Below are positions 355 to 11,559 of a DNA stretch of 12,139 bases, piece after piece (positions within the stretch are counted from its first letter, which is position 1; the number at the start of each line of letters is the position of its first letter). Where the stretch lies: the NCBI GenBank assembly GCA_945632055.1, contig CALZCU010000004.1:1-12139 (forward strand), read 5' to 3'. The notes beneath the pieces were generated by a model. That model worked only from the letters and a program-made list of their open reading frames with translations, did not search any database and was not told the origin of the DNA. The translations under genes and the position numbers were made by a program. The stretch comes from an uncultured Ruminococcus sp. Lineage in GTDB: Bacteria; Bacillota; Clostridia; Oscillospirales; Acutalibacteraceae.

Positions 355-1599
355 TTAATACGGTGCAATAAATGAAATGCAGGTGTCATCGTACACACTG
401 CCCTCGCAGGCGGACACAATGGTCATTTTTATATAGGTGGTGTTTATAGACCTGCCGAATGATATATTTTGCAGATCTATAGTATCGGATATGCCTTTGG
501 TGAATGAAGTTCCGTCTGAAAACTCAAACTTCATTTCAATCACTCTGCCGTTTTCGTCAAAAGCAAGCTTGCTTTTTGAATATCCGTTCACAATGCTTAA
601 TCCCTTAACAGTCTGCACCTTGCTGTCAGAAAACAGGATATATTCGCCTGCGCCTGTTCCCGTCACACCCTCGCACCAGCAGGTGTTGTCGTTGTGCAGA
701 AGATTTGTGCTGTCATAGCGGTCGTTTCCGATGGGTGGAAGCGTTGAAGAAACCTCCAGCTTGCTGAATTCAGGCTTTCTGCTCGCCGTACTGCTTTCTG
801 CTCTTGAAGATGAGCTGTTGCTCGAGCTGTTTGAACCTGAGCCTTTTGAAACATATACTGTAATTGTATCGTTTTCATTGGCTGTTCTTCCTGCAACAGG
901 CGATTGGCTCACAACATAATCGCTTTGCACAATCTTGTCGGGAACAAGAATGATGTTTACCTCCAAGCCTGAGTCACGCAGTTTTTTTGTTGCGTCACTG
1001 CTTCTCAACCCAACAACATCGGGAACTGTAACCTCCCTCACCGTAGTCGGCTCAGTTGTCGGCACAGCCGTTGTGGGAGCCTTTGTTGCAGGCTCGGTCA
1101 CAGTGGTAGGCTCAGTAGTCGGCTCAACAGAAGCAGAGGTTGTTTCTTCGGGCAATAAGATTGTTCCGTTATCCTGATTTGCGAAGAAGATAAAATAAAC
1201 TGCAATTCCTGCCGCCAGAAGTGCAACGGCAACAGATACAATTATAATAATCCATTTTTTACTTGAATGAGGCTCATTGTATTGGAAATTACCTTCGTTC
1301 ATATCATAATCGAACGGCGAATCGAAGTTATCGTCGGAAAAACCGTCATGATAGCTGTTTCTGCCACTTTTCTGATATACGCCTGATTCATCAAAGGTAT
1401 CAATATTTCCGAACTCATCGGTGTTGCTTTCAACTGCGTTTGCGCCGTATTGACCATTGACTGCACTATCATTGCCGAGGTCAGTTGATTCTGATAAGAC
1501 ATTTTCAGCCGCTGTCGACTCCTCTGCAAATTTGCTTCCGCATTTTTTGCAGAACTTAACACCGTCATTATTTTCAGCTCCGCACTTAGGACATATCAC
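355..1599 (-). CDS. zinc ribbon-TM-PASTA-NADase-type glycan-binding membrane protein
   Basis: Predicted single-pass envelope protein of 414 aa. In order: zinc ribbon with C3, C6, C17, C20; an acidic, Asn/Asp-rich cytosolic linker; a membrane helix at about 115-139 preceded by KK; a Thr/Glu/Pro-rich spacer (about 153-187); a PASTA domain (about 189-253, with VPDVVG and SQSPVAG); a Ser-rich spacer; and a C-terminal domain (about 284-413) with CWCEG, INGY-like and YDDTCIS motifs. I assign the last to the NADase-type glycan-binding (NADase translocation) family, from memory of its pattern. PASTA domains typically bind peptidoglycan or muropeptides, so both outer domains suggest contact with wall or surface glycan. 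Start: GTG at 1599, because GGGGAG at 1608-1613 lies 8 bp before it; the in-frame GTG at 1608 overlaps that Shine-Dalgarno. It is the last gene of the operon, 15 bp after the S8-vWA gene. Confidence 0.88.
   Translation of the reverse strand: MICPKCGAENNDGVKFCKKCGSKFAEESTAAENVLSESTDLGNDSAVNGQYGANAVESNTDEFGNIDTFDESGVYQKSGRNSYHDGFSDDNFDSPFDYDMNEGNFQYNEPHSSKKWIIIIVSVAVALLAAGIAVYFIFFANQDNGTILLPEETTSASVEPTTEPTTVTEPATKAPTTAVPTTEPTTVREVTVPDVVGLRSSDATKKLRDSGLEVNIILVPDKIVQSDYVVSQSPVAGRTANENDTITVYVSKGSGSNSSSNSSSSRAESSTASRKPEFSKLEVSSTLPPIGNDRYDSTNLLHNDNTCWCEGVTGTGAGEYILFSDSKVQTVKGLSIVNGYSKSKLAFDENGRVIEMKFEFSDGTSFTKGISDTIDLQNISFGRSINTTYIKMTIVSACEGSVYDDTCISFIAPY
1039..1143 (-). repeat. imperfect repeat encoding the Thr/Glu/Pro spacer of the PASTA protein
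   Basis: This segment encodes reiterated TTEPTT / TEPAT / TTAVP units between the membrane helix and the PASTA domain. The DNA shows recurring GTCGGCTCA and GTAGGCTCA words. It looks like a flexible, wall-spanning low-complexity stalk. Copy number could vary between strains. Confidence 0.6.
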
Positions 1600-1607
1600 A
1601 ATAATCA

Positions 1608-1613
1608 CTCCCC
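1608..1613 (-). promoter_or_regulatory. Shine-Dalgarno that sets the start of the PASTA gene
   Basis: On the - strand this reads GGGGAG, 8 bases before GTG at 1599. It overlaps the alternative GTG at 1608, which excludes the longer start. It sits within the 15-bp gap after the stop of the upstream S8-vWA gene. Confidence 0.75.
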
Positions 1614-1614
1614 A

Positions 1615-4600
1615 TTACTTTTGGTTTTGCACAGCAGGAACGCTTCTCCTGCGCTTTTTGACTTTGATTCTGATAATCAGAATGAGAATCAGAATAACAA
1701 CAACTGCAACTGCACCGATTATTATGTAGACAACATATGAATAATCAACAATTTCACCGTAGCTGTTCGCCTTTGCTTCATAGGTAACATCATACTTTCC
1801 GTCACCGTTTTCATCAACATTCAGTACCGTCTTGTCAGACACCTTTGCAACTGTATCGATTCTGGTCAGGCTGTTGATACTTATGTTGTTAAAGCGTCTG
1901 AAATCACTGTAATCACCGTTTTCATTCATAAAACCGATGCTGTAATTCATTGTACCAAAGCCGTTGCCATTGATTTTAATATCGTAGTCCTCGCCCTCCT
2001 TAAGTCGGAGAATCTTGACTCTGTTGTCTGTTTCCGAGCCTGTCAGGCTTGACGAGCCGCTGCTGCCGTTCTGTCCCCAGATGCCTCCGCTATTATAACT
2101 ATTACCGCTATCCTGATAATATGAGCCGTTCTCGGACTGACTGTCTGTTTCTTCAAAGGTCAGTGTGCCGAAGGAGGTTCTTGTGTTTTGATTGTAATTG
2201 GAGGAGTTGAGCGTTTCGCCGTTGTGGGTTACCGAAACATCAACAGGGCAGGCAATTCTGACATAGATATACTTCTGACCGCTAATCTGGTCGGCAATAT
2301 CTCCAAAGAAGAACACCAGACTGTCGGCGTCGGATACCTCATAGTGACAGCCCTCGCTTGCGATTTTCTCCATAAGTGCCTGCGGCTCGGTTTTGTCAGA
2401 TGTCTTTTCAAAGAAACCGAGGGTGTATATGTAAATTCCCTTTTCCTTAAGCTCCTCTGCATAGTTAACCAGATTGTCGCCTGTGCGGCCTTCATTCGGC
2501 ATACCATCGCTCATAAGAACAATTATCTTCTTTTTTGCAGAGCTTTGTGAGAGCTTTTCGTCAGCCTTGCAAAGTCCGTCATCAATATTTGTCGAGCCTC
2601 CGCAGTCTAAATCATTAATAACGCTTTCAAGATAGCTTTTATTGTTCGAGAAATCCGATTTAAGCTTTGCACTGCCGTTGTATGTGACAATTCCTATGTT
2701 TGCGTTTGAATCAAGAATTGTGTCGACAAACTTTACAGCAGCTTTCCTCGTTTCAGAAATAGGCGTACCGCTCATACTTCCCGAGGCGTCAAGAACGAGC
2801 ATAATATCACGGTCACTTGATGAGGATTTATTTGTATTGGAAGGGTTACTTGGCTTATTTGAACTCTGATTTTTATTCTTTAAAGCAGCTTTAATTGAAA
2901 GCTCTGCATTTATCAGTCTGTAACTGTTTGATAAAGGGTGATTTGTACTTGTATTATCTGCAACATTATAACGGGTATTTGCTCTGTCACAGATAATTTT
3001 CTTTACTTCGGCACCTGTTAGTGAAGAATTAGCCGCCCAAGTTAACGAGGCTACTCCCGTAACAACAGGAGCCGCCATAGATGTACCGCTGAGTTTTTCA
3101 TATTCGCCAGAAAGTCCGCCCGGAACAGTACTGTAAACATCTACACCCGGAGCACAAATATCAACTCTTGAACCTGCGTTAGACCATTCAGGCTGTGAGT
3201 ACCTATTATTTTTATCGTTTTGAGCAGCACCCACTACAACAACTCTGTTAATAATATCTGCTTTTGATACTTTATCTCCGGACACACAGTTACTTTCATT
3301 AATTGAGCAATATAAGCCATTGTAAACAGCATCTAATGACACACCGGAAGAATTTCCGTTACCTGCACTTTGAACAATTAAGAAATCATAATTTCTGCAC
3401 AACAAAGAGTACAAATATAATGACGCATTATGGCCCTGAGCATTTACATCTTCATCTGACCTTGTTGTTCCTGTCAGTGAAGAAGTTTGACCTGCTGAAA
3501 GATTAATTACTTTTGAACCGTTTTCTACTAAATTAACTGTACCGCCCAATATCTGATTTGATGTACTCCACTGCAGATTAAACATATTATTTACAAGGTT
3601 CTGAATACCGTTCAACTGCCAATCCCAAGTATTCATTTCGCAGTTCCACACAAGACCCGAAATGCCTTTATTATTGTTTGCCTCAGCACATATAATGCCT
3701 GCAACATGAGTTCCGTGCTTTGCTTTATCGTTAACAGGCGAGGTTGACTTTATTACATTTTTCAAATCCTCATGACCTGTGTCAAATCCATTGTCAACTA
3801 CACCTATATTGATCTTTTCGAGCTTATCGTTTAAGTCCCAAGCAGACACAGCACCAACAGCTTCTACCCACCAATTAGATTCATCAGGATTCGCCTCTGA
3901 CCAAGAGGAATTATCCCAAGTGTCATTAGGAATAGCATTTTTATCCATAAACGAAGCAACATCATAGGTAGCGTCAAAAACAAACTCGTTTTTCTTTATC
4001 TCCTGACATATGACTTTAAGCTCGTCCAATGTGCTTGTTTTAATTTTCACCTGATACTGATCAATAGCAGGAATACTTCCGACAATTTCACCGTTAATCG
4101 ATGAAACAACTTCGTTTACCTGTTGCTGAGTTATTCCCTCTTTGAAAAATATCAACACGATATTGTTAATATACATAATACCCGTTTTTTCATCCATAGC
4201 CAAGGTATTGTCATCGGGCACATATAGTGAGCTTTTACTGTCACCAGCACCATTATTTTTACTGTTATGATTGTTCTTAAATCCAAAAACCTGCATAATT
4301 TCTGATGCTACCGGTACATCAGCAACGCCAAAATAAACAAGCAGACAGGATACTGTACTCACAAGAATAATCAAAGCGAGCACTATTGATACCAGCTTGA
4401 TAAGGAAAGCCTTTGCCTTTTGTCTTGGTGACCTTGCCGCCTTCTTTGCCTTTTTGTCGGCTTTTTTGGCTCTTTTTGACGCAAGCTTATCAGCCTTTTT
4501 CTTTGCCGATTTTTTCTGCTTTTCACTCGTCTGCTTAGCAGGCAGACTTTTATTTGCAGGTCTGTTCTGCTGTGCATTATTTATTATTTTATTTTTCGGC

Positions 4601-4704
4601 TTTTCGGCTTCTTTCTGCTTGGCAATTTCTGTTGCGTCGCACTTGGGACACAAATTTGTCTTTTCATCAAGCTTTGAGCCGCATTTTCCGCAGAATTTCG
4701 GCAT
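1615..4704 (-). CDS. zinc ribbon-TM-subtilisin (S8)-vWA-TM membrane protein
   Basis: 1029-aa predicted membrane-anchored serine protease fused to an adhesion/scaffold domain. In order: zinc ribbon (C5, C8, C19, C22); a very Lys-rich cytosolic linker (about 60-98); membrane helix 1 (about 100-126); a propeptide-like region (about 165-250); an S8 subtilase domain (about 275-605) with catalytic D304 (VVDNG), H330 (HGTHVAG), oxyanion N449 (SAGNG) and S542 (GTSMAAP); a Ser/Asn linker; a vWA domain (about 632-805) with an intact MIDAS (D639-S641-S643, T705, D733); a beta-rich region (about 808-985); membrane helix 2 (about 989-1012); and a basic C-terminus. All catalytic and metal-binding residues are present, so both domains should be active. 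The helices place protease and vWA outside the cell and both tails inside. Start ATG at 4704 follows GAGGG by 6 bp. Substrates are unknown. S8 proteases often process surface proteins, and vWA domains mediate metal-dependent protein contacts. Confidence 0.93.
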   Translation of the reverse strand: MPKFCGKCGSKLDEKTNLCPKCDATEIAKQKEAEKPKNKIINNAQQNRPANKSLPAKQTSEKQKKSAKKKADKLASKRAKKADKKAKKAARSPRQKAKAFLIKLVSIVLALIILVSTVSCLLVYFGVADVPVASEIMQVFGFKNNHNSKNNGAGDSKSSLYVPDDNTLAMDEKTGIMYINNIVLIFFKEGITQQQVNEVVSSINGEIVGSIPAIDQYQVKIKTSTLDELKVICQEIKKNEFVFDATYDVASFMDKNAIPNDTWDNSSWSEANPDESNWWVEAVGAVSAWDLNDKLEKINIGVVDNGFDTGHEDLKNVIKSTSPVNDKAKHGTHVAGIICAEANNNKGISGLVWNCEMNTWDWQLNGIQNLVNNMFNLQWSTSNQILGGTVNLVENGSKVINLSAGQTSSLTGTTRSDEDVNAQGHNASLYLYSLLCRNYDFLIVQSAGNGNSSGVSLDAVYNGLYCSINESNCVSGDKVSKADIINRVVVVGAAQNDKNNRYSQPEWSNAGSRVDICAPGVDVYSTVPGGLSGEYEKLSGTSMAAPVVTGVASLTWAANSSLTGAEVKKIICDRANTRYNVADNTSTNHPLSNSYRLINAELSIKAALKNKNQSSNKPSNPSNTNKSSSSDRDIMLVLDASGSMSGTPISETRKAAVKFVDTILDSNANIGIVTYNGSAKLKSDFSNNKSYLESVINDLDCGGSTNIDDGLCKADEKLSQSSAKKKIIVLMSDGMPNEGRTGDNLVNYAEELKEKGIYIYTLGFFEKTSDKTEPQALMEKIASEGCHYEVSDADSLVFFFGDIADQISGQKYIYVRIACPVDVSVTHNGETLNSSNYNQNTRTSFGTLTFEETDSQSENGSYYQDSGNSYNSGGIWGQNGSSGSSSLTGSETDNRVKILRLKEGEDYDIKINGNGFGTMNYSIGFMNENGDYSDFRRFNNISINSLTRIDTVAKVSDKTVLNVDENGDGKYDVTYEAKANSYGEIVDYSYVVYIIIGAVAVVVILILILIIRIKVKKRRRSVPAVQNQK

Positions 4705-4753
4705 AACAATCCCTCTTTCAAAATGATTTATTGAATTTTAGTCTTTTTAATTA

Positions 4754-6301
4754 TCATTCAGCAGCTTTCCAATAGTAATCTTCGCCTACGAACACTTTTC
4801 TTGGCATACCCAATTCATTGTAGTTTGTGGTGTATTCAACATATCCCTTTAAATCCTCTTTTTTCCTCTCAGCTATATTATACCTCTTTCCGCAGGTAAG
4901 AGCAGATTTGCTGCTATCACCGATATTATAATTTCCTGTATTCATAAAGTACAAATATCCGTCAGAATATCTGAATTCTATTTCATTGGAAATCACTTTG
5001 AATAATTCTATTTCGGTTTTATCGGCAATACCAACCTCGTAAACATTTCTCTTTTCAAGTGATGGTTTTTCGTACTCCCCTGATATATAGTACAGCTTAT
5101 TATTATCCGTATCCAAGGTGTAGCTGCAAGCACTGCCCTGAGTAATGTATGTTCGGTCTGAGCCGTCAGTCTTTATTCTTGCAACACGACTCTTACCGTT
5201 TTCAGAACAATCAAGATAATAAATATAATCTCCAGCGATTGTCAGGTTATTGCAAAGGTTGTTTACATAATAATCTTTATTCTGAGTAAAGCCGCCTAAA
5301 AGCAACTGTTTCTGACTGCCGTCAGTTTTCATCTTATATATTCCTGCTCTGGCATAATCAATCCGAGTATTAGAAACGGACTCACTCTCGCCGATAGGAT
5401 TAATACTGATGTCATTATATCCGTTATCAAAGAAATAAATCCAGCCGTCTCTGACCGCAAATGAAGACGCTCTGGTATCCCCGATAAATTCAATTGAGGT
5501 ACCGTCCTTCTTTATTCTTCCCATTCGGTAATTTATATCTCTTTCTGTCATATAGTATTCTATGCTCGGCAGACACAAAAAGTAAATATACTCACCGTCT
5601 GCCTGAAAACACTTCATAGTTCCGGTATATCTATTGTTGTTCTCTTTTTTACCCGCAACAACACCGCTGTTTTTCAAAGTTGCTTCATCTACCCATACGG
5701 TTTTGCTTGCAGTGCCGTCTGAGTTCAGCTCAAACTTATACAGCTGTGACAAATCATCTCCGTTCTGTGCGTAAATATATTTGCCGTCGTATGCACTTTT
5801 TTTCGCATATAAAGATAATCTTTTTTCCTCGGGAGCGTATTTTATCGGCTTAAGAGAACCGTCGCTCTCCATTTTTACTGTCGGATAAGAGCCAAGATAG
5901 AATTCACCGTTTCCGTTCTTAATAACGGCAGGAGTTTCTGAAGTTTTTGGAGTGTATTTTGACAGTCCTACGGAATTTAAAACCGTATCAATAATCGGAA
6001 TTTTCACAATATTAAAGCAATTAATAACACACAAAGCTCCGCTTACAACAATAACTGCAGCGAGGATAATCGCCGTTATTTTTATTGCCTTTCTGCTCTT
6101 TTTCTTTGGCTTTTGCTCTTTCTGCTCCGATTGATATGTATTGTCCTGAAATACTGCTTCGGTTTGATTATCATTTTCACTGTCAGACCTTAACTCAGCA
6201 GTTGCATCTTCTCTTTCTTTTATCGGAGAAGAATCGCAATTGGGACATAGTCCTGTCCTTTCGTCAAGCCTTGTGCCGCATTTTCCGCAAAAATTTGCCA
6301 T
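4754..6301 (-). CDS. zinc ribbon-TM-beta-propeller (DUF5050-like) membrane protein
   Basis: 515-aa predicted single-pass protein. It begins with a zinc ribbon (C5, C8, C19, C22), followed by an acidic then Lys-rich linker, a membrane helix at about 73-97, and an outward region of about 400 aa. That region repeats a blade motif: a G-x-Y/W-I/L-Y-F/Y strand followed, in several blades, by RIKTDGS-like turns. Such strands start near residues 173, 235, 285, 357, 400 and 447, so about six blades. This matches DUF5050/LRP-type beta-propellers, which usually bind proteins or glycans; I see no catalytic motif. ATG at 6301 is preferred over the in-frame GTG at 6313, because AAGGTGG at 6311-6317 lies 9 bp upstream of the ATG and overlaps that GTG. 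The N-terminal anchor is closely similar to that of the next gene (S8-vWA), suggesting duplication. Confidence 0.87.
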   Translation of the reverse strand: MANFCGKCGTRLDERTGLCPNCDSSPIKEREDATAELRSDSENDNQTEAVFQDNTYQSEQKEQKPKKKSRKAIKITAIILAAVIVVSGALCVINCFNIVKIPIIDTVLNSVGLSKYTPKTSETPAVIKNGNGEFYLGSYPTVKMESDGSLKPIKYAPEEKRLSLYAKKSAYDGKYIYAQNGDDLSQLYKFELNSDGTASKTVWVDEATLKNSGVVAGKKENNNRYTGTMKCFQADGEYIYFLCLPSIEYYMTERDINYRMGRIKKDGTSIEFIGDTRASSFAVRDGWIYFFDNGYNDISINPIGESESVSNTRIDYARAGIYKMKTDGSQKQLLLGGFTQNKDYYVNNLCNNLTIAGDYIYYLDCSENGKSRVARIKTDGSDRTYITQGSACSYTLDTDNNKLYYISGEYEKPSLEKRNVYEVGIADKTEIELFKVISNEIEFRYSDGYLYFMNTGNYNIGDSSKSALTCGKRYNIAERKKEDLKGYVEYTTNYNELGMPRKVFVGEDYYWKAAE

Positions 6302-6310
6302 AATCTCTAC

Positions 6311-6317
6311 CACCTTA
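6311..6317 (-). promoter_or_regulatory. Shine-Dalgarno that sets the start of the propeller gene
   Basis: The - strand reads AAGGTGG, 9 bases before ATG at 6301. The GTG at 6313-6311 is part of this element and so is unlikely to be the start. Confidence 0.65.
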
Positions 6318-6345
6318 TCCGTAAAATTCTTCTTGTAATTTTATA

Positions 6346-7677
6346 CTAAATCAGCCTTGAGCCGCACTCTGTGCAGAAAAGCATATCTTGATTTGTTGTG
6401 GTATAGGAGCAATTGGGACATCTTCTGACAGTTTCCGAAGATTTACTGTTATCTCCTGACATTTTCGCTCCGCAGTTATTGCAGAATAATGCGTCCTCAT
6501 CTGTAGTTTCAAAGCCGCAGACAGCGCATCTGCAAAGCTGTTTTTTCTCCTTTGCAGGAACAGATGTATTGTTTACATCAAGCCTTGTTCCGCAATTTGT
6601 GCAGAACATCATATCGGGATTTGTCATTTCAGCACCGCATCCCGGGCATTTTCTCACATTTGCCTTTTCCTCTTTTTCGGGAGTGCTTGTGCTTGAAATA
6701 TCCTCATATTCCTGCTTTGGCTGTTCAGAAGCAAGCTTTGCTCCGCAGTTAGTGCAGAACAGCATATCGGGATTTGCCGTCACTGTACCGCAGGCAGGAC
6801 ATTTTCTTCCAATCATATTTTCTGTTATCGGTTCTGCTTCTTCCGCCAGTTCAGCTACAGACTCGACCTCAGGCTCAACTATAGGCTCTACTATCGGTTC
6901 AACTGCCGGTTCTGCCATAGGTTCAGCTAAAGGCTCTTCGACAGGAACAGTATCTGTATTTTCTGCTGTCTGCTCAACAGGCCTTTCAACTCTTTTTTCA
7001 ATCATTCTTGCACCGCAGGAAACGCAGAATACTGTGTCAATTTCGGGGGTTTCAAAGCCGCAGGCAGGACAAGACTTAATTTTCATCATTGTATCTATCA
7101 TTCTTGCGCCGCAGGAAACACAGAACACCATATCCTCATCATCGGTTTCAAAGCCGCAGATTGGACACACCTTTGCAGGCTTTGTCGGTGTAACGCTCTC
7201 AGCTTCATTTTCAGCGTTTTCGGTTATCTGCTCATCTGCTTCGCTTTGCTGTTCAACAGGACTTCCGCAGGTGGTGCAGAATTTTGAGCCTTTCTTTAAA
7301 TATTCTCCGCAGTTACTGCACCTTACAAATTCATCGCCGTTTGCCTGTTCGGGTGCGCTCTTCGGCATAGGCGCTCCGCAGGAGTTGCAGAATGCCGCCT
7401 TTGCAGAAACCTCTTCGCCGCATTTCTCACACCTTACAACACCTTTTAGCTCTCTGAGCTTTTCATTATATTCCTCAATTTTTTTCTCAGACTGACGGAT
7501 TGAAGCTATCATTTCCTTAAAAGCGTCCTCGCAGTCGTCTGCGTGAAGCTTAAAATAAAGCCTTCCCAGCTCAACGCACTCGGCTTTTACAGCCTCTTCC
7601 TCCTCGGCAATCATTGAATTAATTTTTGTCGCTTCATCATTTTCAATTACAGCATTTCCAAATTCTTTATTTTCCAT
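6346..7677 (-). CDS. soluble protein with eight zinc ribbons and N-terminal coiled coil
   Basis: 443 aa, no signal peptide and no membrane helix, so predicted cytosolic. Residues about 10-80 are charged and helical (probable coiled coil, EEEEAVKAE to EKLRELKG). Eight four-cysteine ribbons follow: C83-C100, C120-C137, C171-C189, C203-C221, C293-C311, C344-C362, C384-C402 and C420-C438. The first two have CxxC-x10-CxxC spacing; the other six have x11 and share the pattern CPxCGFxTxxxDxxFCxxCGAxM. Ribbons 4 and 5 are separated by an EP-repeat linker (about 247-282). It would bind eight structural zinc ions if folded as expected. Zinc ribbons bind nucleic acid or protein; since its operon partners expose similar ribbons to the cytoplasm, a scaffold role is a plausible inference, but no function is established. 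Start ATG at 7677 follows AAAGGAA by about 9 bp. Confidence 0.88.
   Translation of the reverse strand: MENKEFGNAVIENDEATKINSMIAEEEEAVKAECVELGRLYFKLHADDCEDAFKEMIASIRQSEKKIEEYNEKLRELKGVVRCEKCGEEVSAKAAFCNSCGAPMPKSAPEQANGDEFVRCSNCGEYLKKGSKFCTTCGSPVEQQSEADEQITENAENEAESVTPTKPAKVCPICGFETDDEDMVFCVSCGARMIDTMMKIKSCPACGFETPEIDTVFCVSCGARMIEKRVERPVEQTAENTDTVPVEEPLAEPMAEPAVEPIVEPIVEPEVESVAELAEEAEPITENMIGRKCPACGTVTANPDMLFCTNCGAKLASEQPKQEYEDISSTSTPEKEEKANVRKCPGCGAEMTNPDMMFCTNCGTRLDVNNTSVPAKEKKQLCRCAVCGFETTDEDALFCNNCGAKMSGDNSKSSETVRRCPNCSYTTTNQDMLFCTECGSRLI
6872..6937 (-). repeat. 12-bp tandem repeat encoding an EP linker
   Basis: On + the units read GGCTCAACTATA, GGCTCTACTATC, GGTTCAACTGCC, GGTTCTGCCATA, GGTTCAGCTAAA and the start of a sixth, giving an exact 12-bp period with substitutions. 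On the coding strand each unit gives EP plus two hydrophobic or small residues (AEPM, VEPI). It forms an in-frame spacer between ribbons 4 and 5 of the multi-ribbon protein and could expand or contract without shifting the frame. Confidence 0.85.
7001..7171 (-). repeat. two tandem copies of a 96-bp zinc-ribbon unit
   Basis: The + strand word ATCATTCTTGC(A/G)CCGCAGGAAAC begins at 7001 and again at 7097. It is followed in both copies by GTTTCAAAGCCGCAG, so the period is 96 bp (32 codons). The copies encode ribbons 3 and 4 of the multi-ribbon protein, which share FCVSCGARMI exactly. They look like the most recent duplication in the array. Confidence 0.75.
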
Positions 7678-7729
7678 AATCGCATATTCCTTTCAGAAAT
7701 ATTAATATCATAAATCAGACAATCACTAA

Positions 7730-8857
7730 TTAAACTGCCTGTGCAGTCCTGCTCTTTCTTTTAAACACCTTGAGGTAAAGCAGGAACATAATCATTCCGA
7801 TTGCAAAAGCTGCTGAGCCGAGTATAAGGAACTTGAAAATCAAAGCGTTTCTCAGCACCTCAAGCAGATAGAAGCCGAACACAATCGGCAATATCAGCAA
7901 TGCCAAGGCAACCAGAAGGAGCATTGCACCCAGAACAGAAAGCGTAATTCCGCAATATGCAAACAGATATTTTACTCTCATATTGTTGCAGATGAGCAAA
8001 AGCGCAAGCATACTTACAGACAGAACAATCAGAATAATCAGAACGGGAATCGAGAAAACTGCGCTGATTATCGAAGGGCTGAAGCCTATTAGTCTTTCAA
8101 TTCCGATTGCAGTCAGAAATTCCATTGAGCCGTTGTTTATCTCATTCTCAAGCGATCTGAAATCACTGTCGGTAAAGACATAGCCTGTCATATTGTAAAT
8201 TATGTCGGCGCTGTCCTTTATCAGTCCGATAATCTCTGAAGTATACATAAGCTTGGGGGCTTTGCCGAATGCAACATACTGAACATACTCATTAACAAAA
8301 TTTCCAAGATATTTTTTGATTGTGGCATTGTTCAGAACATTTACTACATCCTGCCTTGTGATTCCGTATTCATTAATTGCCTTTTCATCGACAATGCTCA
8401 AAACCAAATCAGGAACGGCAATATTAACTCCGTTCTGCCTTATCTGAACCTTACTCAAATCGATATCGGTGCAGATTTTTTTGACGCCGTCCTCACTGAG
8501 AACAGACCTTGCAATTCCCACACCCATAGCTGATAGGGTGAACAAAAAGAAGAACACGCACAGCACAATCGACAATGTTTTTGATAATGTGCTTGTGCCC
8601 TGCTCGCTGACCGCTTCATCTCTGCCGGCAGGATAATTATAATTGTCGCTGTATTGCGGCACACCTGCTTTCTGATGATATGTATAGGCTGTTTCCGTCT
8701 GAGAAAAATCCGCTCCGTTGCTGTTTGTCGGCTCAGCCGTATTTTCTGCAACGGTAGTGTTCACAGGCGCATTGTCTGTATTCTCCATTCTGAAGCCGCA
8801 ATATTCACAGAAGCGAGCTCCGTCTTCAATTTTATTTCCGCATTTTCCGCAAAACAT
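7730..8857 (-). CDS. zinc ribbon membrane protein with four helices and an extracytoplasmic domain
   Basis: 375-aa predicted multi-pass membrane protein, first gene of the operon. It has a zinc ribbon (C3, C6, C17, C20), a polar Asn/Thr/Tyr-rich cytosolic linker, TM1 at about 95-117, a region of about 145 aa outside the membrane (about 118-260), and three close helices (about 263-290, 297-328 and 341-365) before a basic tail FKRKSR. The outer region is mixed helical/beta and contains short blocks such as NEYGITRQDVV and IKDSADIIYNMTGYVF; I do not recognise a family. No catalytic motif is visible. ATG at 8857 is chosen because GGAG at 8865-8868 lies 7 bp upstream and the ribbon then starts MFCGKCG; an in-frame TTG at 8875 would precede that site. 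It is followed after 52 bp by the multi-ribbon gene. It might be a membrane hub or transducer for its operon partners; this is inference only. Confidence 0.87.
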   Translation of the reverse strand: MFCGKCGNKIEDGARFCEYCGFRMENTDNAPVNTTVAENTAEPTNSNGADFSQTETAYTYHQKAGVPQYSDNYNYPAGRDEAVSEQGTSTLSKTLSIVLCVFFFLFTLSAMGVGIARSVLSEDGVKKICTDIDLSKVQIRQNGVNIAVPDLVLSIVDEKAINEYGITRQDVVNVLNNATIKKYLGNFVNEYVQYVAFGKAPKLMYTSEIIGLIKDSADIIYNMTGYVFTDSDFRSLENEINNGSMEFLTAIGIERLIGFSPSIISAVFSIPVLIILIVLSVSMLALLLICNNMRVKYLFAYCGITLSVLGAMLLLVALALLILPIVFGFYLLEVLRNALIFKFLILGSAAFAIGMIMFLLYLKVFKRKSRTAQAV

Positions 8858-8864
8858 ATTAATT

Positions 8865-8868
8865 CTCC
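8865..8868 (-). promoter_or_regulatory. Shine-Dalgarno core that sets the start of the first operon gene
   Basis: The - strand reads ACGGAGAA, with the GGAG core 7 bp before ATG at 8857. It excludes the TTG at 8875 as the start, since that codon lies upstream of the site. Confidence 0.7.
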
Positions 8869-8916
8869 GTTTCAATATATAATTATGATATAATTTCCGA
8901 CAATATCACATATAAA

Positions 8917-8945
8917 ATTTTAATACTTTATGTCAAAAAAGTCAA
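8917..8945 (-). promoter_or_regulatory. sigma-A-type promoter of the zinc-ribbon operon
   Basis: On the - strand TTGACT (8940-8945) is followed by exactly 17 bp and then TAAAAT (8917-8922); each hexamer matches the sigma-A consensus at five of six positions. Transcription would start near 8910, leaving a leader of about 50 nt before ATG at 8857. A second TTGACA overlaps the spacer but has no good -10 at 16-18 bp. No other convincing promoter was seen in the four short gaps of the operon, which supports one transcript for all five genes. Confidence 0.7.
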
Positions 8946-9056: not shown

Positions 9057-9062
9057 GAGGTG
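9057..9062 (+). promoter_or_regulatory. Shine-Dalgarno that sets the start of the response regulator
   Basis: GAGGTG lies 6 bp before ATG at 9069. The in-frame GTG at 9060 is part of this element, so the longer start is unlikely. Confidence 0.75.
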
Positions 9063-9068
9063 AACGGT

Positions 9069-9752
9069 ATGTATAAAATTCTTCTTGCTGAGGACGACAG
9101 GAATATTAGTGAAATGCTGTGCGACTATTTTTCCGAGAAAAGCCGAGGTAACATTCGGATTGATGTTGTCAGAAACGGCGAAAAGGGAGTTGAAAGGGCA
9201 TATGAAGAGCCGTACGATTTGCTTTTGCTCGACATAATGCTCCCCAAGCTTGACGGCTTTGAGATTTGCCGTGAGGTAAGGCGGTTCAGCGATGTTCCGA
9301 TAATGTTCATCACTGCAAGGTGCGGTCAGGACGATGTACTCACCGGCTACGCACTCGGCTGTGACGATTATATTGTAAAGCCGTTTTCCCTGCCGATTTT
9401 CTACAACAAGGTGCTTGCTCTGATTAAGCGTTCCAAAGGCTTGGTGCGCTCTTCCCTGCTCACCTGCGGTACGCTTTCGCTCAACCCGAACAACGGCATT
9501 GTAGTTTCCGACGGAGTTGAGGTCAGGCTAGCCGCTAAGGAGTATGCTATTCTTAAAGCTCTCCTTGAAAACAAGGGCAGCGTTGTCAGCAGAGATACAC
9601 TTATTAACAGAGCGTGGGATTATGACTCCTGCACCGATGACCGTGCGCTTGACACACATATAAAAAATCTGCGCAAGGCTCTCGGCGAAAATTCAAAGCT
9701 TATCAAAACCGTAATCAAACGAGGCTACAGAATGGAGGAAAACAATGGATAA
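9069..9752 (+). CDS. OmpR-family response regulator
   Basis: 227-aa two-component transcription factor. The receiver domain (about 1-120) has the acidic pocket E8-D9-D10, phosphoacceptor D55 in LLLLDIMLPKLDG, T82 and K104 in the VKPF motif, so it is complete. The C-terminal winged-helix DNA-binding domain (about 132-222) carries the usual LAAKEYAIL, DTHIKNLRKAL and IKRGYRM blocks. Total length is typical of the OmpR/PhoB family. It is phosphorylated by the kinase encoded next to it: the two genes overlap by 8 bp and are translationally coupled. It is transcribed away from the zinc-ribbon operon across a 211-bp shared control region, so control of that operon and of its own gene is likely but not shown. 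Which signal it answers cannot be read from the sequence. Confidence 0.96.
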   Translation: MYKILLAEDDRNISEMLCDYFSEKSRGNIRIDVVRNGEKGVERAYEEPYDLLLLDIMLPKLDGFEICREVRRFSDVPIMFITARCGQDDVLTGYALGCDDYIVKPFSLPIFYNKVLALIKRSKGLVRSSLLTCGTLSLNPNNGIVVSDGVEVRLAAKEYAILKALLENKGSVVSRDTLINRAWDYDSCTDDRALDTHIKNLRKALGENSKLIKTVIKRGYRMEENNG

Positions 9753-11559
9753 GCAGTCGAGTAAAAAGGCTGACAATGCAAAGCCTGTTTTGCATAATCA
9801 TATTTCCAATAAGCTGAAAAAGCAGAAGCGCAGGCTTTTTGTCAGAATTGCTCTGTCACTGCTGATTGTCACAGTTATTGTATTTTCGGCTTTTGCAGTA
9901 ACCACCTACTACTCCGAGCTTGACATACTGACGAGCCGAGCTAACAGCAATCTTCAGCGCATAGCACTCAACGATTCCTTTTATTACGACCGAGGCTATG
10001 GCTATTACACGCTGAACAAGGAAAACAATGAAAATATACAGGTTATCGTAACCAATCTGGAAAACGGTGCAGTTGCATATCAAACTGAGGACGCAGTTGC
10101 AGTTGAGTTCTCGGACGACACAAGGAGCTATCATCACGGCTGTATAGAATTTGAACAATTCAGAAGCTCTATGACCGACGAGCAGTACAGGGAGATTACC
10201 GATTATCTGACAAAGAAAACAGCGGAAAATGATGAATATTACGAGCTTGTTTGTACGGAATTTTATCCCGCAAACGGTCATATTCTGCCTAAAACCGTAG
10301 AAATTGTGCAGACAAGCAAGGAAAACGAGTGGTATGCTCAGGACAAAACAATCACACGCTACGAGCTAAATCCAAAGCTAAAGAGTAAGTCAGAAAAGGC
10401 TTATAAATGCGATGATATGAAAAGGAATGTCATTGAGGACGATTTTGTTTTAGGAAAATACAAGCAGAGCAATGTTATTAACGAATACAACGAAGCACTG
10501 AAAAATCAGCTTAAAGATATTTCCAATGACGAGTATACATATTCGGACTCTGTAGTTCATATTCAAAGAGTCGAAAATGTTGTTGAAAGCTCAAATGATG
10601 AACCGATAGTTATCAGAATCATTGATGAAGTTCCGGTTGTAAGTTCAGATGTCAATTCACTCGACAACATTTCTCTCGGAAGAGTTAAGGTTGCACCGTT
10701 TACATATATTTTTGAAAATTCCGAACAGCTACTTGCAATTCCGATTAACACAAATGAACCCAAAAATCTGTCCGTTACCTATGCGGAGAAATTCAATGTG
10801 CTTGAAAGCTGCGGCAGCAGACTGTTGTTTATGCTTTTCTTTACAATCGCCTTGTTTCTGACAACAGGAATAATCATCGGCGCAATCACCTGGAGAACGC
10901 TTAAAAAGCAGATTGAGCAGGAAAACCGACTGCGCACCGTTACAAATGCAATGGCTCACGAGCTTAAGACGCCCCTGTTTATCATCAGCGGATTTTCCGA
11001 AAATCTCGCCGAGAACATTCACCCCGAAAAAAGGGAGCATTACTCAGAGCTTATCGGCGAACAGATTGAATCTATGAACGGTCTTGTGACGAAAATGATT
11101 GATTATTCAAAGCTCGATTCTCTCGCCTTTACACCAAGCCTTGAGCAGTTCAGCCTGTCGGATATGACAAAGGAAATAATCGACCGATTTGATACGGACG
11201 AAATAGTATTCTACTGCAACGATGAGGTTGAGATTAACGCTGACAAAAAACTGCTCGACTCCGCAATAGAAAATCTAATTGACAATGCGCTGAAATACTC
11301 CGTTGACAGCCGACCTGTAACCGTTATGCTCAACAATGGTATGCTATCGGTCAGCAATCCCTGCAAAGCAGTCACAAAGGCAGAAATAGCCGATATGTGG
11401 CAACCGTATCACCGTCTTGCAGAAAGCAGTCAGAAGGAAGGGCACGGGCTTGGACTTGCAATTGTCAAGAGCATTTTTGAGCTGCATAAATTCAGCTGCG
11501 GCGCTGATTACTCCGACGGAATAATTACCTTCTGGTTCAGATTTAAAAAGAGCAATTAA
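9745..11559 (+). CDS. sensor histidine kinase with large extracytoplasmic domain
   Basis: 604-aa membrane sensor kinase. A basic N-tail (1-31) leads to TM1 (about 32-55), an extracytoplasmic region of about 300 aa (about 56-355), TM2 (about 357-381), a HisKA domain with phosphorylated H405 (AHELKTP), and a HATPase domain with N box ENLIDNALKYS (about 509-519) and G2 box GHGLGLAI (566-573). The usual DxGxG of the G1 box is replaced by VSNPCK (about 536-541), a degenerate form also known from some VanS/BceS-like kinases; activity is still expected. The outer region is acidic, rich in Tyr, Glu and Asn, and shows no domain I recognise. It is about twice the size of most sensor domains in this class. 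ATG at 9745 has GGAGG at 9734-9738 and overlaps the regulator gene by 8 bp. It partners that regulator. Confidence 0.95.
   Translation: MDKQSSKKADNAKPVLHNHISNKLKKQKRRLFVRIALSLLIVTVIVFSAFAVTTYYSELDILTSRANSNLQRIALNDSFYYDRGYGYYTLNKENNENIQVIVTNLENGAVAYQTEDAVAVEFSDDTRSYHHGCIEFEQFRSSMTDEQYREITDYLTKKTAENDEYYELVCTEFYPANGHILPKTVEIVQTSKENEWYAQDKTITRYELNPKLKSKSEKAYKCDDMKRNVIEDDFVLGKYKQSNVINEYNEALKNQLKDISNDEYTYSDSVVHIQRVENVVESSNDEPIVIRIIDEVPVVSSDVNSLDNISLGRVKVAPFTYIFENSEQLLAIPINTNEPKNLSVTYAEKFNVLESCGSRLLFMLFFTIALFLTTGIIIGAITWRTLKKQIEQENRLRTVTNAMAHELKTPLFIISGFSENLAENIHPEKREHYSELIGEQIESMNGLVTKMIDYSKLDSLAFTPSLEQFSLSDMTKEIIDRFDTDEIVFYCNDEVEINADKKLLDSAIENLIDNALKYSVDSRPVTVMLNNGMLSVSNPCKAVTKAEIADMWQPYHRLAESSQKEGHGLGLAIVKSIFELHKFSCGADYSDGIITFWFRFKKSN

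Follow-up and report, generated by a model that had tools for sequence, protein, structure and literature searches.

A five-gene operon of zinc-ribbon proteins

The window analysed here, that is, the whole stretch of 12,139 nucleotides from an uncultured Ruminococcus sp. (contig CALZCU010000004.1, our contig C4), belongs to an assembly of 1.41 Mb in 285 contigs that is 76.6% complete (GCA_945632055.1). It carries five consecutive, long and tightly packed minus-strand genes, named P_A to P_E, which span positions 8857 to 355 in the open reading frame (ORF) calls and are separated by 52 bp (P_A/P_B), 44 bp (P_B/P_C), 49 bp (P_C/P_D) and 15 bp (P_D/P_E). The ORFs came from a simple in-house caller, the zinc ribbons from the pattern CxxC-x8..22-CxxC and the transmembrane (TM) helices from hydropathy. 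Start codons of the five genes were chosen from ribosome-binding sites and from the starts of homologues; P_A starts with ATG, P_C with an ATG behind AAGGTGG and P_E with a GTG behind GGGGAG. The features of the locus are as follows (lengths in amino acids, aa).

8917..8945, minus strand: promoter-like match TTGACT-17-TAAAAT upstream of P_A (consensus scan only, 10/12 matching)
7730..8857, minus strand: P_A, 375 aa; ribbon 8798-8851, TM helix, outside domain of ~145 aa, three more TM helices
6346..7677, minus strand: P_B, 443 aa, the proposed hub; ribbon-free N-terminus ~7438-7677, eight ribbons ~6364-7431, no TM helix
4754..6301, minus strand: P_C, 515 aa; ribbon tail MANFCGKCGTRLDERTGLCPNC at 6236-6289, TM helix, DUF5050 propeller
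1615..4704, minus strand: P_D, 1029 aa; ribbon 4639-4692, TM helix 4336-4392, S8 domain 2971-3816, vWA domain 2317-2808, TM helix 1672-1728
355..1599, minus strand: P_E, 414 aa; ribbon 1540-1593, TM helix, PASTA 844-1032, NADase-type discoid glycan-binding domain 367-765
9060..11559, plus strand: OmpR-type response regulator (9060-9752) and histidine kinase (9745-11559), divergent from the operon

The initial annotation had described five genes with gaps of 15-52 bp and a CxxC-x10/11-CxxC ribbon in each, which the ORFs and the motif confirmed. Its division into four membrane proteins with a ribbon and a fifth, soluble protein with eight ribbons agrees with the hydropathy profiles and the motif counts, and domain scans recovered the outward modules that it had named (propeller, S8 plus vWA, PASTA plus glycan-binding), the P_A ectodomain being without a family.

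Ribbon tails and topology

P_A, P_C, P_D and P_E each have one N-terminal C-x2-C-x10-C-x2-C ribbon and P_B has eight with x10 or x11 spacing, so that the operon holds twelve ribbons in total. Hydropathy gave four TM helices for P_A, none for P_B, one for P_C, two for P_D and one for P_E. The ribbons of P_C and P_D fell under the Pfam cut-offs, yet all four cysteines are present in both. With the model PF13240 at E <= 0.1, ribbons were detected in five ORFs of the window versus seven in the rest of the assembly, and at E <= 1e-5 in three versus six; two of these last six, all of which were read, are N-terminal ribbon plus TM proteins. Hydropathy and charge together predict that the ribbons lie inside the cell and the modules outside, and the position of the propeller outside the membrane is supported by those relatives that carry a lipoprotein signal (lipobox).

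Most of the listed homologues of P_D share the tail consensus MAKFCGKCGxKLDExTGLCPNCD, the ten non-cysteine positions K3, F4, K7, L12, D13, E14, T16, G17, L18 and P20 each being conserved at 82-100% across 97 tails. The linker between tail and membrane in these homologues is basic and measures 52-73 aa (middle half). Searched as an exact DNA pattern in 295 genomes of the order, the tail matched only three, including the window's own, the pattern being too strict; all three have a P_B match, located in the two non-window genomes on another contig than the tail.

This conservation bears on two other explanations of the ribbons. The ribbon might bind no partner and serve simply as a small folded knob that keeps the N-terminus inside, the clusters then having arisen by domain duplication; the N-terminal ribbons on two other membrane proteins of the same genome fit this explanation, but many non-cysteine residues of the tail are conserved and P_B has no membrane helix to orient, and we consider it unlikely. 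That the ribbons serve zinc sensing, zinc storage or redox control, responding to zinc or oxidants and switching the surface enzymes, would account for twelve ribbons within one operon. We regard it as very unlikely, as the tail consensus extends beyond metal binding, a zinc transporter or regulator is absent among the nine window proteins scanned, and the Rfam scan of the window was empty at gathering scores.

Exchange of the enzyme between constant ends in P_D

The S8 domain of P_D (Pfam E 1.5e-36) has DNG, HGTH and GTSMA starting at residues 304, 330 and 540, so that the Asp, His and Ser motifs of this putative protease are in place. The metal ion-dependent adhesion site (MIDAS) of vWA domains is made up of DxSxS, T and D; D15, S17, S19, T81 and D109 of this site are invariant in an eight-sequence alignment (A1). 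The mycosin model of the type VII secretion system scored 88.6 bits on P_D, under its cut-off of 278.75, and secretion components were absent among the window proteins scanned.

Of the 1194 homologues of P_D found, 120 were listed, and in 108 of these a ribbon lies in the first 60 residues. The enzyme between the constant tag and vWA ends varies, and can be an S8 subtilase, an M4 or SGNH enzyme or a domain without a Pfam name. Homologue P0019 is identical to P_D at 108/118 N-terminal and 393/403 C-terminal positions around an unrelated middle, for which Pfam and a PDB sequence search gave no name (a resemblance to clan CD was seen by eye only), and P0026, an SGNH protein, is identical at 396/402 C-terminal positions. 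We read these pairs as a recent swap of the enzyme while the two ends stayed the same. No second copy of P_D was seen in the window's own assembly.

At the SGNH loci (20, one also with M4) the ribbon is fused to the enzyme in none, and a separate ribbon gene lies directly upstream of the SGNH-vWA enzyme in 12 of the 20. The ribbon can therefore come in trans. Separate subunits of this kind, often preceding enzymes without a fused ribbon, also argue against the knob explanation. Ten of 118 P_D homologues, among the matches listed, carry a second ribbon after the last TM helix of the vWA part, and two of these ten are fusions with a further ribbon-TM stretch.

Conserved neighbours of the vWA genes

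A scan anchored on the vWA domain gave 55 loci, of which 49 were used and the six weakest matches (L142-L147) omitted; the 49 come from Clostridia, Erysipelotrichaceae and Coriobacteriaceae, and several are short contigs. Named strains among the related loci are R. bromii, Mediterraneibacter massiliensis, Pseudoflavonifractor phocaeensis and Collinsella massiliensis. Proteins with an N-terminal ribbon and a TM helix make up 65/191 neighbours in the same run versus 12/503 other genes, and 65/123 versus 12/180 when only TM proteins are counted. At least one such neighbour was found in 27/49 loci, and three or more in 12/49. Homologues of P_B lie within eight genes of the vWA gene in 21/49 loci (22 genes, all on the same strand), and 17 of the 22 have at least two ribbons by pattern, the other five fewer.

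Three further proteins recur at these loci. The first, a subunit of ~286 aa, is present in 20/49 and stands immediately before the vWA gene in 18 of the 20; a ribbon was found by pattern in 14/20 and a TM helix in 17/20, some of the six without a ribbon having cut or misplaced starts. The second, a ribbon-TM protein of a 211-aa type, lies within eight genes in 17/49 loci (23 genes, 22 with a ribbon). The third, a protein of 138 aa for which mostly three TM helices are predicted, lies within the same distance in 10/49; absent from the window operon, it may be a separate partner of the P_B family. We found also three loci (L185, L192 and L194) where P_B-family genes with one to two ribbons stand beside the 138-aa protein and vWA genes are not nearby.

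The gene order is partly kept as well. In R. bromii ATCC 27255, which belongs to the window's genus, the window order survives for P_B, P_C, P_D (here a split pair of similar genes) and P_E inside a larger ribbon operon, which runs P_B, the 138-aa protein, a 926-aa ribbon protein, P_C, a 376-aa ribbon subunit, a lectin-vWA protein, the 211-aa type and P_E. Locus L095 runs P_A, P_B, the 138-aa protein, the subunit, an SGNH-vWA protein and two proteins of the 211-aa type, an A-B-D combination, and G415 has P_A, P_B and two ribbon-TM genes. Pairs of P_A and P_B were found in G023, G058 and G415, where, as in L095, the P_A copies are distant relatives, and a pair of P_B and P_D in G027. Behind the ribbon operon of L095, at 12636-16857, are two more TM proteins, one with BspA-type leucine-rich repeats by Pfam.

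The five genes might also form an ordinary operon whose membrane proteins are unrelated and have a widespread small domain in common by chance; that all modules, the P_A ectodomain excepted, belong to known domain families would fit this. The enrichment among neighbours and the order conserved in R. bromii speak against it, and we give this explanation hardly any credence.

A tendency for ribbon tail and multi-ribbon gene to occur together

We compared the presence of a ribbon tail with that of the P_B-type multi-ribbon gene, called here the hub gene. Such a gene lies within seven genes of 15/33 ribbon-tagged and 1/16 untagged vWA loci (Fisher p 0.008). The sole untagged exception carries an odd-spaced ribbon missed by the motif, which makes the figures 16/34 versus 0/15 (p 8e-4), a reclassification made after the result was seen. 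Without nine loci in which the vWA gene starts less than 4 kb from the locus start, the original 15/33 versus 1/16 becomes 14/29 versus 1/11 (p 0.03). The loci being related, none of these Fisher values is a probability of independent events.

The propeller of P_C gave a second comparison within one genus, in which 161 genomes were searched and all 18 matching genomes were read. Nine genomes (the window's own, G032, G006, G121, G013, G070, G119, G043 and G412) combine a ribbon tail on the propeller with a multi-ribbon gene in the operon; the multi-ribbon gene of G043 has one hydropathy segment and still matches the P_B profile, and that of G119 matches the profile and gave no match with a short N-terminal probe. 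In G407 the propeller has a ribbon of another type and the hub gene is not nearby. The other eight genomes have a ribbonless propeller, anchored by a lipobox in six (in L242 it lies in frame upstream of the called ORF start) and by a plain TM helix in two, and no hub gene nearby. The operon thus includes a multi-ribbon gene with 9/10 ribbon-tailed and 0/8 ribbonless propellers (p 4e-4), a contrast that overstates independence because about three changes on the tree of the propeller suffice to produce it. Somewhere in the genome, the hub gene is present in 10/10 ribbon-tail genomes; in G407 it sits on a different contig, with a ribbon-TM gene next to it. A partnerless knob would not lead one to expect that ribbon status correlates with a soluble multi-ribbon gene.

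Five loci of the genus (L233, L234, L236, L238 and L255) share a recurring set of a multi-ribbon gene, a ribbon-tailed propeller and a protein of 571-575 aa with 8-11 TM helices; this protein resembles a GT-C glycosyltransferase by eye, and its L236 copy has no Pfam match. A patatin phospholipase follows the L236 cluster and a CotH, dockerin and CBM26 protein precedes it.

Several observations weigh against a link between tail and hub, or against a fixed set of partners, in addition to the small number of changes in the propeller tree. The hub gene is absent within seven genes at 18/34 ribbon-tagged vWA loci, and is found elsewhere in the genome in 5/8 cases where the propeller lacks a ribbon. 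Outside the genus but within the order, we took 20 of the best-scoring hub matches; at two of them a P_B ORF was missing and at one a ribbon-TM protein stood in its place, and at only 5 of the remaining 17 loci, three of which have a single ribbon, does a ribbon-TM gene lie on the same strand within three genes. Within the genus, ten chosen loci that encode P_E-like ribbon proteins, some of them Ser/Thr kinases with the discoid domain of P_E, have no hub gene within four genes, and these hub-free proteins also fit the knob explanation. Eight further hub places in the genus gave a mixed picture, with a ribbon-TM gene adjacent in three, absent in one, and four not judged (two at a contig end, two without a called hub ORF). 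At 8/20 SGNH loci there is no ribbon gene directly upstream, some contigs being cut there. The expectation that the five families are neighbours in related genomes held for the four kept in order in R. bromii and for the further pairs, but the complete set of five was found in the window only, among the genomes and loci read. The idea that P_B is an obligate partner of ribbon-TM genes was dropped, as only 5/17 order-level hub loci fit it.

A possible surface complex gathered by a cytosolic hub

We tentatively read the operon as encoding a ribbon-tagged surface complex gathered by a cytosolic multi-ribbon hub, a reading to which we give a little less than an even chance. P_A, P_C, P_D and P_E would be anchored in the membrane, each with its N-terminal short ribbon facing the cytosol, in P_D on a basic linker, and would expose the P_A ectodomain, the propeller, the subtilase with the metal-site vWA, and the PASTA and discoid glycan-binding domains. 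P_B, soluble with eight ribbons and an N-terminus that looks helical by eye, would dock the tails, and docking would collect the ectodomains into one patch. The patch may bind cell-wall or glycan material, and the vWA domain would hold protein substrates or partners while the protease cuts; judging from the domain families, PASTA and the discoid domain would bind the wall or glycans, vWA would offer a site for partners and S8 would do the cutting. We infer the docking, its stoichiometry, the substrate and the benefit to the cell. An envelope-spanning assembly held together by ribbons, as first proposed for this locus, is upheld in part: neighbours are conserved and the tail and hub genes tend to come and go together, but many tagged loci are hub-free. 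The sensing or processing of surface material proposed with it would follow from the names of the domains.

More widely, and with less assurance, gut Firmicutes and Coriobacteriia might share a 'ribbon code' in which a cytosolic ribbon tag addresses exchangeable surface hydrolases, receptors and glycan binders to a soluble multi-ribbon scaffold. If so, a cell would refit its surface machine by swapping the enzyme between constant ribbon-TM and vWA-TM stems. Cohesin-dockerin scaffolds (cellulosome, amylosome) likewise have repeated receivers on one protein and a small tag on many enzymes. They are extracellular and built of unrelated domains, whereas here tag and receiver are both predicted to be cytosolic zinc ribbons; by analogy, the ribbon tag and hub could be a cytosolic counterpart of the dockerin-cohesin principle, a comparison that we hold as a possibility rather than as a likelihood.

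The main rival of the hub complex is a signalling role. According to it, the locus would be an envelope-stress surveillance system comparable to PspA-YdjGHI: the ectodomains would sense wall or membrane damage, the tails would signal it by taking up or letting go of P_B and further ribbon proteins of the cytosol, and the protease would be part of the response. The available parts of two sources lend it support in Bacillus subtilis, where YdjG has two ribbons, an NTF2-like domain and a TM helix, and has as operon partner a band-7 protein with a C-terminal ribbon (PMC11237479), and where soluble YdjI and PspA depend on YdjG and YdjH to reach the membrane (PMC8581546); the available part of the latter does not state that ribbons mediate this. 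In that system a ribbon membrane protein encoded in the operon assists a soluble protein in reaching the membrane, and one of the soluble proteins is itself described with a ribbon; the combination of ribbon membrane proteins (P_A, P_C, P_D and P_E) with a soluble ribbon protein (P_B) is present here too. Further points for signalling are the divergent two-component system that adjoins the operon and the P_E-type ectodomains found in the genus on ribbon-bearing Ser/Thr kinases, one of which has an M15 D-Ala-D-Ala peptidase as its neighbour. The Pfam scan of the window proteins, however, found no PspA, SPFH (band-7) or TPM domain in the five products, a response-regulator match was obtained at only 1/49 related loci, the hydrolase-vWA proteins and the multi-ribbon hub have no counterpart in PspA-YdjGHI, and signalling alone leaves the enzyme exchange unexplained. 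We think an envelope-stress system improbable.

Two side observations touch on these proteins. At L245 and L246, there are tandem ribbon-tailed Ser/Thr kinases, one of which has the NADase-type discoid ectodomain of P_E and is followed by an M15 D-Ala-D-Ala peptidase; this suggests that P_E is a kinase receptor without its kinase. The window's own genome has, on contig C73 (L087, 3671-5659), an SPFH/band-7 protein with C-terminal ribbons, of YdjI-type resemblance, beside a Tim44-like protein (just under the cut-off) with a C-terminal ribbon.

Comparison with other ribbon and vWA systems

Firmicutes proteins of the TcaA/YvbJ type have an N-terminal ribbon, one TM helix and outside domains, a layout like that of the operon proteins, and we know of no hub for them. 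The TcaA model NF053815 scored 11.8 bits on P_E against a cut-off of 550 (E 0.074). TcaA is termed a ribbon-domain protein in the accessible part of PMC10611510.

The closest precedent for docking is ArnA-ArnB of Sulfolobus acidocaldarius, in which an N-terminal C-x2-C-x10-C-x2-C ribbon, of the same spacing as the operon tails, docks on a vWA-containing protein; the ArnA ribbon (C21, C24, C35 and C38) alone suffices to bind ArnB (PDB 8S05), as reported in the part of PMC12852372 available. Profiles of P_A (E 3e-4) and P_B (E 1e-3) hit the ArnA chain weakly, and the vWA profile of P_D hits the ArnB chain (E 1.6e-8); for P_B and vWA, the chains of DZANK1 and Mfa5 score better than these. ArnA-ArnB differs in being a cytosolic two-protein regulator with an FHA domain and without membrane proteins or a multi-ribbon hub, whereas the operon proteins are predicted to have their vWA domain outside the cell and their ribbons inside it. 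MoxR-vWA ternary and GTPase-ZnR systems, as far as the accessible part of PMC7159879 describes them, combine vWA domains, zinc ribbons and exchangeable effectors in multi-gene systems, as here. The vWA domain of the operon, by contrast, is predicted outside the cell, and no MoxR AAA+ ATPase or GTPase was found among the operon products by the Pfam scan. PADLOC, run on seven proteins, returned no defence system, only partial matches to a subtilase (P_D), PD-T4-6 (P_E) and LmuB (P_B).

Open-access full-text searches aimed at this locus or its parts gave, among the papers listed, no description of it, judged by title or the start of the abstract. As far as can be told, the arrangement and the tail-hub link are new, the individual domains are known except one, and the whole would be a variant of ribbon-mediated docking. 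For the recurrent N-terminal ribbons on Firmicutes membrane proteins we found no assigned job, and the locus offers one: they could be an address that a soluble multi-ribbon hub reads. With the tail consensus, the enzyme exchange and the lipid-anchored homologues as natural controls, this idea could be tested on short constructs; if true, it would describe a conserved surface machine of gut commensals and a general way to organise the envelope from inside.

Transcription and flanking genes

A single promoter had been proposed for the five genes. The 10/12 match upstream of P_A and the lack of any minus-strand promoter-like match in the gaps between the genes, by consensus scan, agree with this, but several promoter-like matches fall inside the operon genes; the same scan gave 41 sites in the window versus 26.0 in shuffles. 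One transcript fits the small and promoter-free gaps, and is not settled because of these internal sites and of two weak terminator-like matches at junctions, one at 7741-7716 (P_A/P_B) and one at 6364-6352 (end of P_B).

A chromosomal site shared with R. bromii ATCC 27255 was not supported, as the gene at the left edge of the window gave no match to the four end ORFs compared on the contig of that strain. We had also considered the two-component system as a conserved part of the operon, a candidate rejected on the single response-regulator match among the vWA loci. Its histidine kinase has a part of ~300 aa between two TM helices that matches no Pfam family. The two genes at 9060-11559 are a possible local regulator of the operon.

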